This document shows, in pieces, positions 25,942-48,176 of a DNA stretch of 64,000 nucleotides. A program made the translations under genes and the position numbers. Below the pieces are notes generated by a model, which did not search any database, was not told the origin of the DNA, and saw only the letters and a list, made by a program, of their open reading frames with translations. The DNA is from Robertkochia aurantiaca (GTDB lineage: Bacteria > Bacteroidota > Bacteroidia > Flavobacteriales > Flavobacteriaceae), in NCBI RefSeq assembly GCF_020166495.1, contig NZ_JAINZS010000002.1:496001-560000 (forward strand). The letters are read 5' to 3'. Every line of letters begins with the position of its first letter. Position 1 is the stretch's first letter.

Positions 25942-26484
25942 ATGAGCAAATTGCTGGAGAGAACCATAATAGACCATTTAAAAAACCGTGATGAACAAGG
26001 CATGAACCTGCTGTACGATCATTACGGAGATACGCTTTTTGGGGTGGCCATGAAAATCACCAAAGATGAAGACCTGGCCAAAGACGTACTTCAATTAAGC
26101 CTGATGAAGATTTGGGATAAGATAGAGACCTATAATCCTGAAAAATCAAAGCTGTTCACCTGGATGTTTCGCATTACCCGCAATACCGCAATCGATAAAA
26201 TAAGAAGTATTTCACTTAAGACAGACCAGGAGATCCAAATTGAAGTTTCAGACGTATATAATTTAGGCGTTCAGGGAGTAAACCCGGAACATATGGACAT
26301 TAAGAAACACTTGAACACTCTCGAAGACAAGTATGTTGAAGTTCTGGAAGCGCTCTTTTTTAAAGGTATGACGCAACAAGAGGCCAGCGAAGAGCTGAAT
26401 ATTCCGCTTGGAACGATCAAATCCCGCCTGAAAATCGGGTTACGAGAACTAAGAAAGATTTTCGACCCTGCCACCTTATCATAA
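25942..26484 (+). CDS. ECF RNA polymerase sigma factor
   Basis: The 180-residue protein has region 2 (LYDHYGDTLFGVAMKI, LFTWMFRITRNTAIDKIR) and region 4 with a helix-turn-helix (GMTQQEASEELNIPLGTIKS). It directs RNA polymerase to stress or envelope promoters. The next gene, 11 bases downstream, encodes its membrane anti-sigma factor. Such pairs usually autoregulate. The signal sensed is unknown. Confidence 0.93.
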   Translation: MSKLLERTIIDHLKNRDEQGMNLLYDHYGDTLFGVAMKITKDEDLAKDVLQLSLMKIWDKIETYNPEKSKLFTWMFRITRNTAIDKIRSISLKTDQEIQIEVSDVYNLGVQGVNPEHMDIKKHLNTLEDKYVEVLEALFFKGMTQQEASEELNIPLGTIKSRLKIGLRELRKIFDPATLS

Positions 26485-26495
26485 TTATCTGTAAA

Positions 26496-27275
26496 ATGAA
26501 AGATACGATACATACGGTATTAGAATCTGACCTGTTAGAGCGGTATTTAACCGGTGAGACCTCTGTAGAGGAGTCTCTTCGTGCAGAACACCTTATCGGA
26601 AAATATCCCGAGATCGAAAAGGAATACGAGATCCTGCAGGAAAACCTGGAGCTCTTCATCAGGTCATACGCTGTAGAAGCTCCTGAAGACCTCAGGAAAG
26701 AGATCGTTTCAGAGCTCGGCAAATCGCAAGCCGCTGACGATAAGAAGCCCGTATCCTGGCTTTTCATAGCAGCCTCGGTGGCAGCTATGATATTCGCCAT
26801 GGCTACCGTAACCCTCTGGAAGCAGAACAAACTGCTTTCTGATCAGAACAACACCGTTGCCACTCAGATCGAGGATTTGAAAAAAGATATCGTTCTGACG
26901 AATTCTAAACTGGAAAATGTAAAAAGCAAGTTTGCTGTTCTGAACAATCCGGAAACCAAAAAATACTATATTACCGGTAACGAAAGAGCAAAGAACCTGA
27001 AATCTGTTGCTTACATAAACTCTAAGGAACGATTAAGTGCCATCAACGTGTTGTCGCTTCCTGAACTACCGAAAGAGAAAGAACTTAAAATGTGGGCCGA
27101 GATCAATGGTAAAATGGTTTGCCTGGGTACTCTCGAACAGGCTGACAGAAAACTAATGGCCCTGCCATTTAACGAAGATGCAACGGCTTATAAAATCACA
27201 ATAGAATCTAAAGGAAACAATAATTTTGCCACCATCGATACAGAAGTAGCAGATATTCGTTTCGACCAGGAATAA
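26496..27275 (+). CDS. Membrane anti-sigma factor (RskA type)
   Basis: The 259-residue product has an N-terminal cytoplasmic sigma-binding part (LLERYLTGETSVEESLRAEH), a single membrane helix at about 86-107, a short coiled coil, and a periplasmic RskA C-terminal domain (about 145-255; NVLSLPELPKEKELKMWAEI). It holds the neighbouring sigma factor inactive. No cysteine/histidine zinc motif is seen in the N-terminal part, so it is a zinc-free type. Confidence 0.9.
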   Translation: MKDTIHTVLESDLLERYLTGETSVEESLRAEHLIGKYPEIEKEYEILQENLELFIRSYAVEAPEDLRKEIVSELGKSQAADDKKPVSWLFIAASVAAMIFAMATVTLWKQNKLLSDQNNTVATQIEDLKKDIVLTNSKLENVKSKFAVLNNPETKKYYITGNERAKNLKSVAYINSKERLSAINVLSLPELPKEKELKMWAEINGKMVCLGTLEQADRKLMALPFNEDATAYKITIESKGNNNFATIDTEVADIRFDQE

Positions 27276-27699: not shown

Positions 27700-28260
27700 T
27701 TGAAGCAGGAAGAAAACGTAAAAGATCATATCGAAAAGGCAAAAGAAGGCGATCAAAAAGCCTTCAGTTTTCTCCTGAACCGCTTCTGGCCCGATGTCTA
27801 TCGTTTCCAATTGCTGAGAACCCATGATGAGAATCAGGCCGAAGACATCACTATCAGATCTTTTTCCCGCGCTTTCGACCGTATTGAAACCTATCGGGAA
27901 GAATACGAATTCAAAACCTGGCTTATCACCATCTCGAAGAACATTCACATCGATCTTCTGCGCAAAGAAAAGTCACGCATGATGCAACAGCTCGATGAGC
28001 AGGAACAGAACGGAATCTATCAGGTACCTGATGATGCCCCCACTGCCGAAGATCAGCTTATTAGCGAACAGGACTTGAATTCCCTGCTAAAACACATTCA
28101 AAAACTGAAACCTCATTATCAAAAGGTGATACATTTGAGGTACTTCCAGGAGATGACTTACGACGAAATCGCAAAGACGCTTGATGAGCCCCTGAATAAT
28201 ATTAAGGTGAAGCTGCTAAGAGCCAGGAAATTACTCGCCGACATCATTAAAAAAAATTGA
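27700..28260 (+). CDS. Second ECF-type RNA polymerase sigma factor
   Basis: The 186-residue product has region 2 (FLLNRFWPDVYRFQLLRTHDE, EFKTWLITISKNIHIDLLRK) and region 4 (LRYFQEMTYDEIAKTLDEPLNNIKV). No in-frame ATG lies near the expected N-terminus, so TTG at 27700 is the start. A box TATCTTTA (27672-27679) lies 20 bases upstream. No anti-sigma gene is adjacent; the next gene encodes an Nramp transporter, so partner and regulon are unknown. Confidence 0.88.
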   Translation: MKQEENVKDHIEKAKEGDQKAFSFLLNRFWPDVYRFQLLRTHDENQAEDITIRSFSRAFDRIETYREEYEFKTWLITISKNIHIDLLRKEKSRMMQQLDEQEQNGIYQVPDDAPTAEDQLISEQDLNSLLKHIQKLKPHYQKVIHLRYFQEMTYDEIAKTLDEPLNNIKVKLLRARKLLADIIKKN

Positions 28261-43567: not shown

Positions 43568-45100
43568 ATGGCCACGTTAAGACTTATTTTGGGAGACCAG
43601 TTGAATTATAACCACAGCTGGTTCAGGGAAACCAACGATAATATAACCTATCTCATGGCTGAAATGCGTCAGGAGACAGACTATGTAAAACACCATGTAC
43701 AAAAGGTCTGCGCCTTTTTCCTCGCCATGCGCTCTTTTGCAGATCACCTGAAAAAACAAGGCCTTCAGGTACATTATTACAAACTGGACATGGATGAAAA
43801 TCCGCATAAGCTCAAAACCCTGCTGGAAGATGAATTAAAGCAGGGCTCTTATGATCGTTTTGAATACATGGAACCTGATGAATTCAGACTTGATAAACAG
43901 CTGAAGGAAATCTGTAATGATCTCGACATCGATACCGGTATGACCGGAACCGAACATTTCTATACCGAACGTTCAGAGCTGTCTGAGTTCTTTAAGGGAA
44001 AGAAGCAACTGCTCATGGAAAATTTCTATCGCCATATGCGAAAGAAACACAAGGTGCTCATGAATAATGACAACCCGGAAGGTGGAGAATGGAATTACGA
44101 TCAGAGCAACCGAAAAAAGTGGAAGGGAGAACCAAAAATACCCGAACCACTGACCTTTGAGAATGATCCACGGCCCATTAAAGAGATGCTCGAAAAAAAC
44201 GGGGTTCGTACCATAGGGAATTTAGATGAAAATAACTTCAACTGGCCAGTGAACAGGGAGCAAACCCTGCAGTTACTGGATCATTTTTGCGATAGGTTGC
44301 TTCCTCATTTTGGAGACTACCAGGATGCCATGCATACCGAAACCACCTACCTGTTTCACTCGCGCCTCTCCTTTTCCCTTAACAGCAAGATGATCAATCC
44401 TGAGGAGATCGTTAATAAAGTCGAAGATCATTACTATCAGAACAAAGAAGAAATCGACATTTCACAGGCCGAAGGATTCATTAGGCAGATCCTGGGCTGG
44501 AGAGAGTATATGAGAGGAATATACTGGAAAGAAATGCCCGGATACAAATCAAAGAACGCACTGGATAACCATAATGACCTGCCTGGTTTTTACTGGACAG
44601 GTGACACCAGAATGAAGTGTCTGCAACATGCTATCAAACAGTCGCTCAACAATGCCTATGCACACCATATTCAACGGCTCATGGTAACGGGTAATTTCGC
44701 CTTATTGATGCAATGCGAACCTGAAGCGGTAGACGAATGGTACCTGGGAATTTATGCAGATGCCATAGAATGGGTAGAACTTACCAATACCAGAGGAATG
44801 AGTCAGTATGCCGACGGTGGCGTAATTGCCACCAAACCGTATATTTCCTCTGCCAATTACATCAATAAAATGGGTAATTATTGTAAGGAGTGTCATTATT
44901 ATCACAGTAAGAAAACCGGCGAACGGGCATGCCCCTTCAACGCTCTTTACTGGAACTTTCTGGAACAGAAAAGAGAGAGACTTAAGAATAATCCGCGTAT
45001 GGGAATGATGTACAGCCTGCTCGACAAAATGGACAAAAATCAATTGGAAGCGATCATGAAAAGAGCTGATAAGATCATGAAAAACCCCGATGAGTTTTAA
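43568..45100 (+). CDS. Iron-sulfur bacterial cryptochrome/(6-4) photolyase (PhrB type)
   Basis: The 510-residue protein starts at the ATG 43568 (MATLRLILGDQLNYNHSWF); the frame is open upstream inside the cryptochrome gene but this start fits the family. Four cluster cysteines are Cys351 (MKCLQHA), Cys439, Cys442 (YCKECHYY) and Cys455 (ACPF). Their spacing equals that of Agrobacterium PhrB (350/438/441/454). The family repairs (6-4) photoproducts. It is the last gene before the small-RNA array. Confidence 0.94.
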   Translation: MATLRLILGDQLNYNHSWFRETNDNITYLMAEMRQETDYVKHHVQKVCAFFLAMRSFADHLKKQGLQVHYYKLDMDENPHKLKTLLEDELKQGSYDRFEYMEPDEFRLDKQLKEICNDLDIDTGMTGTEHFYTERSELSEFFKGKKQLLMENFYRHMRKKHKVLMNNDNPEGGEWNYDQSNRKKWKGEPKIPEPLTFENDPRPIKEMLEKNGVRTIGNLDENNFNWPVNREQTLQLLDHFCDRLLPHFGDYQDAMHTETTYLFHSRLSFSLNSKMINPEEIVNKVEDHYYQNKEEIDISQAEGFIRQILGWREYMRGIYWKEMPGYKSKNALDNHNDLPGFYWTGDTRMKCLQHAIKQSLNNAYAHHIQRLMVTGNFALLMQCEPEAVDEWYLGIYADAIEWVELTNTRGMSQYADGGVIATKPYISSANYINKMGNYCKECHYYHSKKTGERACPFNALYWNFLEQKRERLKNNPRMGMMYSLLDKMDKNQLEAIMKRADKIMKNPDEF

Positions 45101-45194
45101 TAAAGTTTTAACGCAAAACCCACGGCTAATATCAACCCTTTCTTCGTATGTATTATACTTAGAAAATCCCGCTTTAAGCGTCTTAATAACCCGC

Positions 45195-45230
45195 ACAGGC
45201 TTTCTTATTATAAGAAAGCCTGTTTCTTTT
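45195..45230 (+). terminator. Strong hairpin 95 bases after the photolyase gene
   Basis: ACAGGCTTTCTTA (45195-45207) pairs perfectly with TAAGAAAGCCTGT (45211-45223), then TTCTTTTT. The stretch before it contains TTCGTATGTATTATA (from 45143), similar to boxes in front of the downstream RNA units, so it could also end a further small RNA. Confidence 0.85.
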
Positions 45231-45368
45231 TAACTATGGTTTTAAATCCCCGGTATAGCCATTTATTTATCTTCTGTAAAACTGCCGGTTCAGCTGGCGA
45301 TAATGTTAAAAATTCAAATTAATTCGCTCCAGAAGATCCGAAAAGAGCAATCGCTCGTATATAAAGTA

Positions 45369-45438
45369 ATCATTACATAGTAGTAGGTATTAGTTTAGGG
45401 AAAAAAGTCCTCTGTTCTTCGGATCGGAGGACTTTTTG
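45369..45438 (+). ncRNA. Candidate small RNA, copy 1
   Basis: The predicted transcript of about 70 bases begins with the 32-base block shared by all three copies (45369-45400; starts ATCATTACATAGTAG, ends TTTAGGG). It is followed by a 12-position stem (AGTCCTCTG.. from 45406 to 45433) closed by a C(TTCG)G loop, one of the most stable tetraloops, and a T-run. A TATATAAA box lies at 45358-45365. Confidence 0.65.
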
Positions 45439-45540
45439 TTTCCGGGCCTTTCTGTTTGGTAACGATAAAGCGTTCCTCATAAGTCATCAACTAACAACCT
45501 ACCCAAAAGAACCGACCGGGCTGATTTACCGTATATAATT

Positions 45541-45616
45541 ACAAGATGATTTAGCAGTATAGTTAGTTAGGTAAAAAAGCCTTGTGCAAATTTTAATGTT
45601 GCCGGGGCTTTTTTTT
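45541..45616 (+). ncRNA. Candidate small RNA, diverged copy
   Basis: The same layout with a different sequence. GTATATAA at 45531-45538, as in copies 1 and 2, is followed by a TAG-rich segment ending GTTAGTTAGGT. The terminator stem AAAAAAGCC/GGCTTTTTT (about 45573-45613) has an inner GCAA/TTGC stem. The distance from box to hairpin (41 bases) nearly equals that of copy 1 (43). Confidence 0.45.
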
Positions 45617-45745
45617 AACCTTGATGTATTTTTATTGGGCAGGTTGACCGAGCCCCGTTCAACACAATGTTAAAATTGTGTTATAAGACTCATTTTTAAT
45701 AATTTACGAAAACCAAGCAGCTTATTTCATTCGTATATAAAACAA

Positions 45746-45818
45746 ATCATTACATAGTAGTAGGTATTAGTTTAGGGTGAAAAGTCCTCTGTTCAATTTG
45801 GCAGAGGACTTTTTATTT
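45746..45818 (+). ncRNA. Candidate small RNA, copy 2
   Basis: The 32-base block at 45746-45777 is identical to copy 1. It is followed by AAAAGTCCTCTG (45780-45791) pairing with CAGAGGACTTTT (45802-45813) around a 10-base loop, then ATTTCT. A TATATAAA box precedes it at 45734-45741. Confidence 0.65.
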
Positions 45819-46004
45819 CTACCTAACACCCCGCCGTATTTCAAGCAGACTATGTAAGAAGTATTTTTTCAACAGGACCTCCGTTTATGAGAAAGGCTAT
45901 GCGCTTACTGACATCTTTTCTTACGGATTTTGTAGCCTTTGGTTCTTTAAAATAAAGAAAACGTTAAATAAACCTAAATATCTGATTTTTAGTCGTTTAT
46001 GTTA

Positions 46005-46034
46005 TTGAGAATCAGATCACACTCCTTATATTTA
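46005..46034 (+). promoter_or_regulatory. Promoter of small RNA copy 3
   Basis: TTG (46005-46007), a 19-base spacer and TATATTTA (46027-46034) match the -33/-7 consensus with one mismatch in the -7 box. The conserved 32-base block starts 6 bases downstream, where transcription should begin. Confidence 0.6.
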
Positions 46035-46039
46035 CATCA

Positions 46040-46113
46040 ATCATTACATAGTAGTAGGTATTAGTTTAGGGAAAAGGTCCTGTGGTCGCCAGATCACAGG
46101 ATCTTTTATTTTT
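46040..46113 (+). ncRNA. Candidate small RNA, copy 3
   Basis: The 32-base block at 46040-46071 is identical to copies 1 and 2. The hairpin (46072-46107; 16 pairs with two G-T, loop GCCA) differs in sequence: TCCTGTG/CACAGGA replaces TCCTCTG/CAGAGGA, a paired C-G to G-C change. A T-rich tail follows. Confidence 0.65.
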
Positions 46114-46191
46114 ATCTACCCTGAGTCTCGTCAATGCATCCATAAAAATACCTCTCATGTTTTTTCTGAAGAATACTGTACTTTTAATGAT

Positions 46192-47504: not shown

Positions 47505-48176
47505 ATGACCAAACTATACCCCTTAGCTCTCGTTTTGCTTCTACTCATCTCCTGTAATGAAGAGACCGATAAAAAGCCCCTGTCAGCACCTGAAAAGATC
47601 GCCTATGCACATGGGTTCGAAAACTGGGATAAAATAGAGGAGATACAATTCACTTTTAATGTAGACCGGGATACCACCCATTTTGAGAGGCACTGGATCT
47701 GGCAGCCTAAGTCAGACGCAGTTACCATGATCTACGCTGAAGATACCGTATCCTATAATCGGGCAAGCATTGACAGCACCGTACTTCAGGCAGACAAAGC
47801 CTTTGTCAATGATGTATACTGGTTGCTCGCCCCTTACAAACTGGTTTGGGACAAGGGGTACGAATATGAAGAACCCTACCTTGATAAAGCACCAATCAGC
47901 AATGACAGCCTTCAAAAATTCAGCATAGTATATGTGGGGGAAGGCGGATATACCCCGGGTGATGGTTATGATTTTTACCTGGATCAGGAAAATAAGGTCA
48001 AAGAATGGGTATACCGAAAAGACAACGATACGGCTGTTTGCATGAAGACAACCTGGGAAGATTATGAAAATCTCGAAGGGCTTCAGATCGCCACCATGCA
48101 CCAGGATGAAACCGGTAAGTTCAAGCTTTATTTTACAGGACTGGAGGTCACTGCTTCAGAGACTCAGACCCCGTGA
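47505..48176 (+). CDS. Lipoprotein of unknown function
   Basis: A 223-residue lipoprotein (lipobox LLISC, Cys17). The mature part has a repeated pattern FERHWIWQPKSDAVTMIY and KLVWDKGYEYEE and resembles flavobacterial lipoproteins of about 200-240 residues with a lipocalin-like or LolA-like strand order. No catalytic motif is seen. It is convergent with the MFS gene 3 bases away. It is divergent from the CDGSH gene. Confidence 0.7.
   Translation: MTKLYPLALVLLLLISCNEETDKKPLSAPEKIAYAHGFENWDKIEEIQFTFNVDRDTTHFERHWIWQPKSDAVTMIYAEDTVSYNRASIDSTVLQADKAFVNDVYWLLAPYKLVWDKGYEYEEPYLDKAPISNDSLQKFSIVYVGEGGYTPGDGYDFYLDQENKVKEWVYRKDNDTAVCMKTTWEDYENLEGLQIATMHQDETGKFKLYFTGLEVTASETQTP

Follow-up and report, generated by a model that had tools for sequence, protein, structure and literature searches.

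To our knowledge, the small RNAs (sRNAs) of Bacteroidota have been little charted apart from those of the gut genera. The closest described systems come from the enterobacteria and from the phylum itself. RybB and MicA of enterobacteria are sigma-E-dependent RNAs of 70-80 nt with a conserved genomic position; their ECF-sigma promoter is conserved together with the RNA, a 3' terminator is described in that paper for RybB, they depend on Hfq, and omp mRNAs are their proven targets (PMC1804206). FopS/GibS of Bacteroides are multi-copy paralogous sRNAs, with 12 to 15 copies per genome, in which a conserved single-stranded 5' stretch precedes a Rho-independent terminator; they are made from canonical sigma-ABfr promoters and have the RRM protein RbpB as partner (PMC11697453). 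As described in these two papers, both groups pair with 5' parts of mRNAs (PMC1804206, PMC11697453). In Flavobacterium psychrophilum, Rfp11 is a conserved regulatory-RNA candidate behind an ECF-type SM6 promoter with a CGT box, and the SM6 list of that species also includes an ECF sigma/anti-sigma pair (PMC9723704).

Here we describe SS1, a family of short units found in a window of Robertkochia aurantiaca DNA, that is, the whole analysed stretch of 64,000 nucleotides, to which all coordinates refer unless another place is named. Judged by its sequences, SS1 is very probably a real but so far undescribed regulatory RNA family, with what seems to be a stress-type promoter in most copies. Its predicted RNA resembles RybB and MicA in size, in conserved genomic position and in an ECF-type promoter conserved along with it (15 of 18 units, by sequence), and it shares a 3' terminator with RybB. 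No sequence relation is claimed, and the SS1 genomes differ in that Hfq was found in none of seven; the targets of SS1 are putative, whereas those of RybB and MicA are proven. With FopS/GibS it has in common several paralogous copies and a conserved 5' stretch, free of all but a weak predicted hairpin, in front of an intrinsic terminator. Contrary to FopS/GibS, however, SS1 comes in one to four units per genome, its promoters are ECF-like in 15 of 18 units and sigma-A-like in three, and RRM_1 was found in none of seven SS1 genomes. Rfp11 and SS1 can be compared by description only, and the typical independent transcribed region in that paper exceeds SS1 in length, with a median of 176 bp (PMC9723704).

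Structure of the SS1 units

The 32-nt block ATCATTACATAGTAGTAGGTATTAGTTTAGGG is present in three exact copies, at 45369, 45746 and 46040, just as an earlier note on this DNA had claimed. The first 15 bases of the block have three exact matches in the window and a fourth with two mismatches, compared with a mean of 0.10 in shuffled sequences. In the whole R. aurantiaca genome, a search allowing up to 3 mismatches over 24 bases returns three places, which are the window units 1-3; the reversed 24-base pattern, searched in the same way, returns none.

All units lie on the forward strand. Unit 1 consists of an ECF-like promoter at 45336-45361 (ATCC at 45336-45339, 16 nt, CGTATA at 45356-45361), the block at 45369-45400, which marks the predicted 5' end of the RNA, and a terminator hairpin with a T-run at 45402-45440. 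Unit 2 has its ECF-like promoter at 45711-45737 (AACC, 17 nt, CGTATA at 45732-45737), the block at 45746-45777 and the terminator hairpin with T-run at 45778-45819. In unit 3, a sigma-A-like promoter at 46005-46034 (TTG at 46005-46007, 19 nt, TATATTTA at 46027-46034) is followed by the block at 46040-46071 and by the terminator hairpin with T-run at 46072-46112. Each of the three hairpins is more stable than expected from shuffled sequences, with z of -4.4, -5.6 and -6.3 for units 1, 2 and 3, in agreement with the stable hairpins reported before.

The DNA between the blocks had been described as unrelated, which needs correcting in two respects. Units 1 and 2 resemble each other in their terminator hairpins too (a 55-nt repeat, 93%), so that the similarity extends past the block. 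Between these two units lies a fourth, diverged SS1 paralogue at 45510-45616 (forward strand), detected by a covariance model made from ten SS1 units (33.7 bits, E 4e-5 in the window). It starts with AACC at 45510, followed by N16, CGTATATAA at 45530, a body GATGATTTAGCAGTATAGTTAGTTAGG and a terminator whose hairpin reaches z -2.4 against shuffles; it keeps several UAGs and has lost the exact block sequence.

The 5' part of SS1, thought earlier to be probably unpaired, is so only roughly: a weak hairpin is predicted there, at -1.5 kcal/mol, with 27% of shuffles equally or more stable.

Distribution and conservation

Altogether we found 19 SS1 units, 17 with an identical block, one with a 3-nt insertion in it and one diverged (unit 4). 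The 17 exact copies occur in 12 genomes of Robertkochia and Galbibacter/Joostella (13 from a species scan, three from the window and one from a Galbibacter-group genome), and no exact block was recognised beyond these groups in the genomes searched. The species scan, which covered 84,980 species by one genome each, returned 18 stretches with an 18-mer from inside the block. The full 32-nt block is present in 12 of them, holding 13 copies: in Robertkochia the carriers are R. marina (two records), R. solimangrovi and R. sediminum, and in Galbibacter/Joostella G. pacificus, G. sp. EGI 63066, G. orientalis, G. marinus, G. mesophilus and J. atrarenae. The other six stretches share the 18-mer and little beyond, and we read them as chance. 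Since the 13 copies were found via the exact 18-mer, it is the other 14 positions of the block that are unselected in them. A pattern search with up to 3 mismatches over 24 bases matched all five genomes of the genus and, among 299 genomes sampled from the family, four; all 10 places that it found, in seven genomes, have zero mismatches.

The description of SS1 as a tandem family does not extend to its relatives: in other genomes the number ranges from a single copy, the usual case, to three, and a side-by-side pair was seen in one other genome, that of R. marina. The copy with the 3-nt insertion is an extra one in the genome with the G. pacificus copies, where it follows a primary-sigma-like (RpoD-like) gene.

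Across ten units the block is invariant and the hairpin variable. Among nine distinct hairpin sequences, 6 of 14 pairs are altered on both sides while 95.9% of cells pair; the covariation score was reached by none of 500 shuffles, a comparison in which related sequences can exceed shuffles. The 5' part is thus kept as sequence and the 3' part as structure. The block reaches from near the predicted +1 to the foot of the terminator. As a yardstick, we compared the window with five Galbibacter/Joostella loci and R. solimangrovi: two neighbouring genes encode proteins with identities of 84-90% and 56-62% across these loci, and the fourfold sites of both genes (first two bases the same) are 14-40% identical, with 18-48 sites per comparison. 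A block constant between genera and a hairpin with compensatory pairs bear out the earlier picture of a family of RNAs of about 70-75 nt, whose 5' part is conserved and whose 3' part is a terminator only. The family, its boundaries, its terminator and its distribution can be read directly from these sequences.

A wider family suggested by the covariance model did not hold up in the places inspected. At E 0.01 the model matched 40 of 393 genomes of the order (R. aurantiaca included); 29 of the 42 places outside R. aurantiaca were checked by eye and looked like ordinary terminators with the block missing, two of which share CATAGTAGTAG, there ending an apparent coding frame. Among 12 genomes bearing SS2, a second family described below, 11 matched at E 0.1; 15 of the 23 places were checked, and only three were SS1, all in one Galbibacter genome. 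A search of plasmids for SS1 gave no match. Two Listeria phage records match the terminator half only, and two viral contigs match the 18-mer with the remaining block missing; we take all four as chance.

At gathering thresholds, Rfam recognises nothing in the window except a tRNA. With E up to 10, the region 45100-46130 has 14 weak matches, all below the cut-offs; the best, BTnc231 (E 0.07, 21.7 bits against a cut-off of 80.4), is taken as chance. There is no meaningful match among 4227 Rfam families, in which the presence of a FopS model is unconfirmed. The flavobacterial Flavo-1 RNA, put forward earlier as one to compare, matches neither the window at gathering thresholds nor 45100-46130 with E up to 10. 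In the open-access literature searched (FopS, RbpB, Flavobacteria, Robertkochia, Galbibacter, ECF) we found no paper on the SS1 RNA. We take SS1 to be a new family of a known type of sRNA.

Two classes of promoters

The sigma-A -7 box of F. psychrophilum is described as TAnnTTTG, spanning -12 to -5, and ECF promoters as marked by a CGT within the -10 region (PMC9723704). By these two signatures, units 1 and 2 are ECF-like, while unit 3, whose box fits the TAnnTTTG consensus, is housekeeping-like. The boxes TATATAAA, TATATAAA and TATATTTA of units 1, 2 and 3 do begin 11, 12 and 13 bases 5' of the block, as reported before. Their assignment to sigma-A-like -7 boxes stands for unit 3; in units 1 and 2 the box belongs to CGTATATAAA which, with the ATCC or AACC upstream, makes an ECF-like promoter.

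As a family feature the sigma-A-like box has to be given up. We inspected the 45 bases 5' of every exact copy and of the copy with the 3-nt insertion, 18 units in all, and 15 of them carry A(T/A)CC, 16 nt (once 17), CGTAT(A/G), 7 nt (once 8) and then the block, an arrangement seen in 0.04% of 5,400 shuffled upstream stretches. In the three remaining units, namely unit 3 of the window and two copies of the G. pacificus type, TAnnTTT(G/A) takes its place. Two of the three show TTG-N17/21-TAnnTTT(G/A), present in 0.3% of shuffles; the third has the -7 box only, present in 2.4%. In the G. pacificus-type genome, SS1 copies with sigma-A-like promoters lie outside the usual site; the copy with the 3-nt insertion, behind the RpoD-like gene, is one of these.

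SS2, a companion family

The same intergenic regions contain a second short family, SS2, made of a promoter, a core around CCCGCTTTAAGCGTCTATATATAT and a terminator. The window copy (45145-45233, forward strand), just upstream of unit 1, has a CGTATG box, the core CCCGCTTTAAGCGTC and a terminator, and its promoter is degenerate and seemingly weakened. An ECF-like promoter, in a slightly looser pattern, precedes 15 of 19 distinct SS2 copies. Among 395 genomes sampled from the family, 14 contain the SS2 core with up to 2 mismatches. They represent 8 of the 203 genera, including the Galbibacter group, while the three Robertkochia genomes in the sample gave no match at this threshold. Rfam gave no match to SS2 in the six loci scanned.

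In 9 of 14 genomes SS2 lies within ~75 bases 3' of a gene for a lipoprotein-like protein of 221-225 aa, which by eye resembles one near SS1. The window has a 223-aa lipoprotein-like gene at 47505-48176, with no Pfam match, which is a frequent neighbour of both SS1 and SS2. Elsewhere in the R. aurantiaca genome, two near-identical repeats containing ATCCGCTAAGCGAAGTAACCCGTATAATTAAAAACTGTC lie ~490 bases apart, apparently between genes (C9, at ~187,900 and 188,391).

A candidate sigma and anti-sigma factor pair

The window also encodes an ECF-type sigma factor (25942-26484, forward strand), with matches to Sigma70_r2 and Sigma70_r4 and one to Sigma70_ECF at the cut-off, followed by an RskA-like anti-sigma factor gene (26496-27275, forward strand; RskA_C, 34.5 bits). 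Inside the sigma gene, at 26233-26260 of the same strand, we found the motif ATCC-N16-CGTATATA, a possible internal promoter for the anti-sigma gene. The motif is present within the sigma gene in 7 of 7 genomes, and in all seven a gene like that of the window's RskA_C protein stands directly 3' of it. The protein leaves much freedom of codon choice at this place. The amino acid is conserved at 114 codons, yet the codon itself is identical across all seven genomes at only 11; six of these frozen codons fall among the eight at the motif, GAA and GTT of the spacer included. A stretch as dense as this, located anywhere, arose in 6 of 20,000 permutations, a test that counts as after-the-fact evidence because the sigma gene was noticed through its pattern. 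The frozen sites of the motif, like the promoter class of the SS1 units, can be read from the sequences themselves.

The sigma gene is 16-39 kb from SS1 in six of the seven genomes and 1.4 Mb away in the seventh, of the Galbibacter group. The window holds a second ECF-type gene, at 27700-28260. The strict pattern A(A/T)CC-N16-CGTATATA has 26 places in the seven genomes: eight SS1 units, one SS2, unit 4, seven sigma-gene motifs (one per genome) and nine others. On reading, these nine gave no clear sRNA, most lying in coding-looking DNA or being ambiguous. One of the nine, in R. marina, stands where a lipoprotein-like gene begins, which may make this gene another target. A looser pattern, ATCC-N13/18-CGTATA, was uninformative in the R. 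aurantiaca genome (35 places, 26 in controls).

The sigma factor at 25942-26484 is likely the regulator of the ECF-like promoters of SS1. The plain reading of the sequences is that it would read both the promoters of the sRNAs and a promoter in its own gene that feeds its anti-sigma gene.

Proposed action of SS1 and its putative targets

We consider it fairly probable that SS1 is an ECF-driven family of trans-acting sRNAs, built like RybB/MicA and FopS. From the arrangement of the units we infer that SS1 is transcribed, as a non-coding RNA of about 70-75 nt whose 5' end would be at the block or a few bases from it. The conserved block would be the active part, and the intrinsic terminator would be free to vary in sequence. 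Most copies would be turned on by an ECF-type sigma factor, most likely that of the pair at 25942-27275, and a few by housekeeping (sigma-A-like) promoters; with two promoter classes, the same RNA may be made both on demand and at a basal level. As with RybB/MicA and FopS, the block would pair in trans with several mRNAs, in or close to the region where translation begins, and reduce their expression.

Searches for the paired mRNAs gave candidates and several null results. Antisense near-matches to the block, SS1 itself excluded, number 26 in one comparison and 25 in another, fewer than the 48 and 78 obtained with reversed patterns. Near-antisense 18-mers occur in 36 places, 10 of which are SS1 itself; 20 of the other 26 were read, and in six of them the ATG opens a long frame, encoding an Rrf2 protein, an outer-membrane efflux protein, a TPR/PD40 protein, an aquaporin-type protein, HsdR and one other. 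In a second Galbibacter-group genome, one further TPR/PD40 start is 3 nt off; it ranks first of 579 start regions there, at -25.1 kcal/mol against -19.8 for the next. The genes with near-antisense matches at the start codon mostly differ from species to species, and the likely counterpart of one such gene in the window genome has, by eye, no such stretch. A test of the register of the matches was weak (58 against a mean of 38 in shuffles, 28 of 300 shuffles being as high); like the ranking of 579 starts, it uses gene calls from a simple script that counts the first ATG as the start.

Among the start regions of 1,016 genes, 310 pair with the block at -12 kcal/mol, against a mean of 321 for shuffled blocks; at -16 kcal/mol the count is 77 against 62, and 12 of 60 shuffles reach 77. 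The sample of the window genome amounts to ~37% of the genome. Secreted-like genes make up 17 of the top 50, compared with 13.1 with shuffles, 5 of 45 of which are as high; neither of these two energy tests reaches significance. A prediction fixed beforehand, that PorP/SprF-like genes (named by eye) would be targets, failed: in one Galbibacter-group genome they rank 163 and 224 of 579. Pairing of SS1 with SS2 or with the start regions of its neighbours does not go beyond shuffles. These searches establish no target of SS1, and its base-pairing targets remain putative.

Several of these results also fit a second account, in which the RNA is real and its block is a platform for a protein, a sponge like RsmY/CsrA or one for an RRM protein with UAG-rich sites. 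As the sequence reads, the block is rich in UAG and long for a seed, and its 32-nt conservation, in excess of the usual seed length, counts against pairing; several copies per genome would suit titration, and complementary start regions are not significantly enriched. Two candidate partners, however, were not found in the genomes that were searched. Of the known partner classes, RRM_1 (PF00076) is the nearest; it was detected in 0 of 7, while the control was positive in 2 of 14, one of them a Bacteroides; Hfq (PF17209) was likewise found in 0 of 7, with a positive control in 5 of 14. A sponge for an RbpB-like RRM protein is set aside on the same count, and we regard a protein-binding platform in general as unlikely. 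Unit 4, with its UAGs kept and its exact sequence lost, does not decide between sponge and pairing.

Genomic neighbours and remaining alternatives

If SS1 is instead tied to its neighbours, it might form an sRNA cluster for the response to light or singlet oxygen. In the window, the order is DUF2256, DNA photolyase, DPRP photolyase, the SS2 and SS1 units and an SDR gene, and by eye DPRP-like and SDR-like genes flank SS1 in the same order in three other Robertkochia genomes. Two SS1 copies moreover have TGATCC at -35, which we take to be reminiscent of the ECF11/RpoE site. Yet no photolyase gene was seen beside SS1 in R. solimangrovi or in nine Galbibacter/Joostella loci, which shows that the tie to photolyases is not a general one. 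Six of these 10 loci have a DUF5670-like gene no more than 400 bases upstream of SS1. Of the shuffled blocks, 99.5% pair better than the real block with the DUF2256 start region, and 96% do so with that of the photolyase. We hold a light-response cluster to be improbable. The DUF5670-like neighbour encodes a 52-aa membrane protein, very similar between species, directly 5' of SS1.

Just as improbable, or by a shade more so, is a mere DNA repeat or a protein-binding DNA site with incidental hairpins. The perfect conservation of the block as DNA would agree with it. But the block was never met without its surroundings: 18 of 18 units have it between a recognisable promoter-like box and, by eye, a hairpin with a T-run. 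The compensatory changes in the hairpin and a conservation that sets in near the predicted +1 likewise argue for an RNA.

One frame of the block is free of stops, yet a very short translated ORF or an attenuator of the downstream gene is highly improbable, as the block reads without ATG, GTG or TTG, in keeping with the lack of coding capacity noted earlier, and the units precede different genes in different genomes, with the terminator in between.

Discussion

Taken as an ECF-driven, trans-acting sRNA family, SS1 is a compact case: it has sharp predicted boundaries, a defined promoter and a wider sister family, and its candidate sigma/anti-sigma pair sits in the same window. If this picture is right, SS1 gives the sigma-E/RybB/MicA logic a flavobacterial counterpart, and the sigma/anti-sigma pair has a promoter between its two members, inside the sigma gene. 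The acting sigma factor and the base-pairing action are inferred. The interest of SS1 lies in the invariant segment, in the use of two promoter classes, in a second family, SS2, under the same promoter, and in the motif frozen within the sigma gene.

A broader proposal is offered tentatively, and we hold it to be rather doubtful. One ECF sigma factor with its RskA-like anti-sigma factor may act largely through non-coding RNA, by way of a promoter placed before the unrelated SS1 and SS2 and, within the sigma gene itself, driving the anti-sigma factor as a built-in brake; the invariant 32-nt active segment of SS1 would be made from ECF-type and housekeeping promoters alike, in cells with no detected Hfq or RRM protein.
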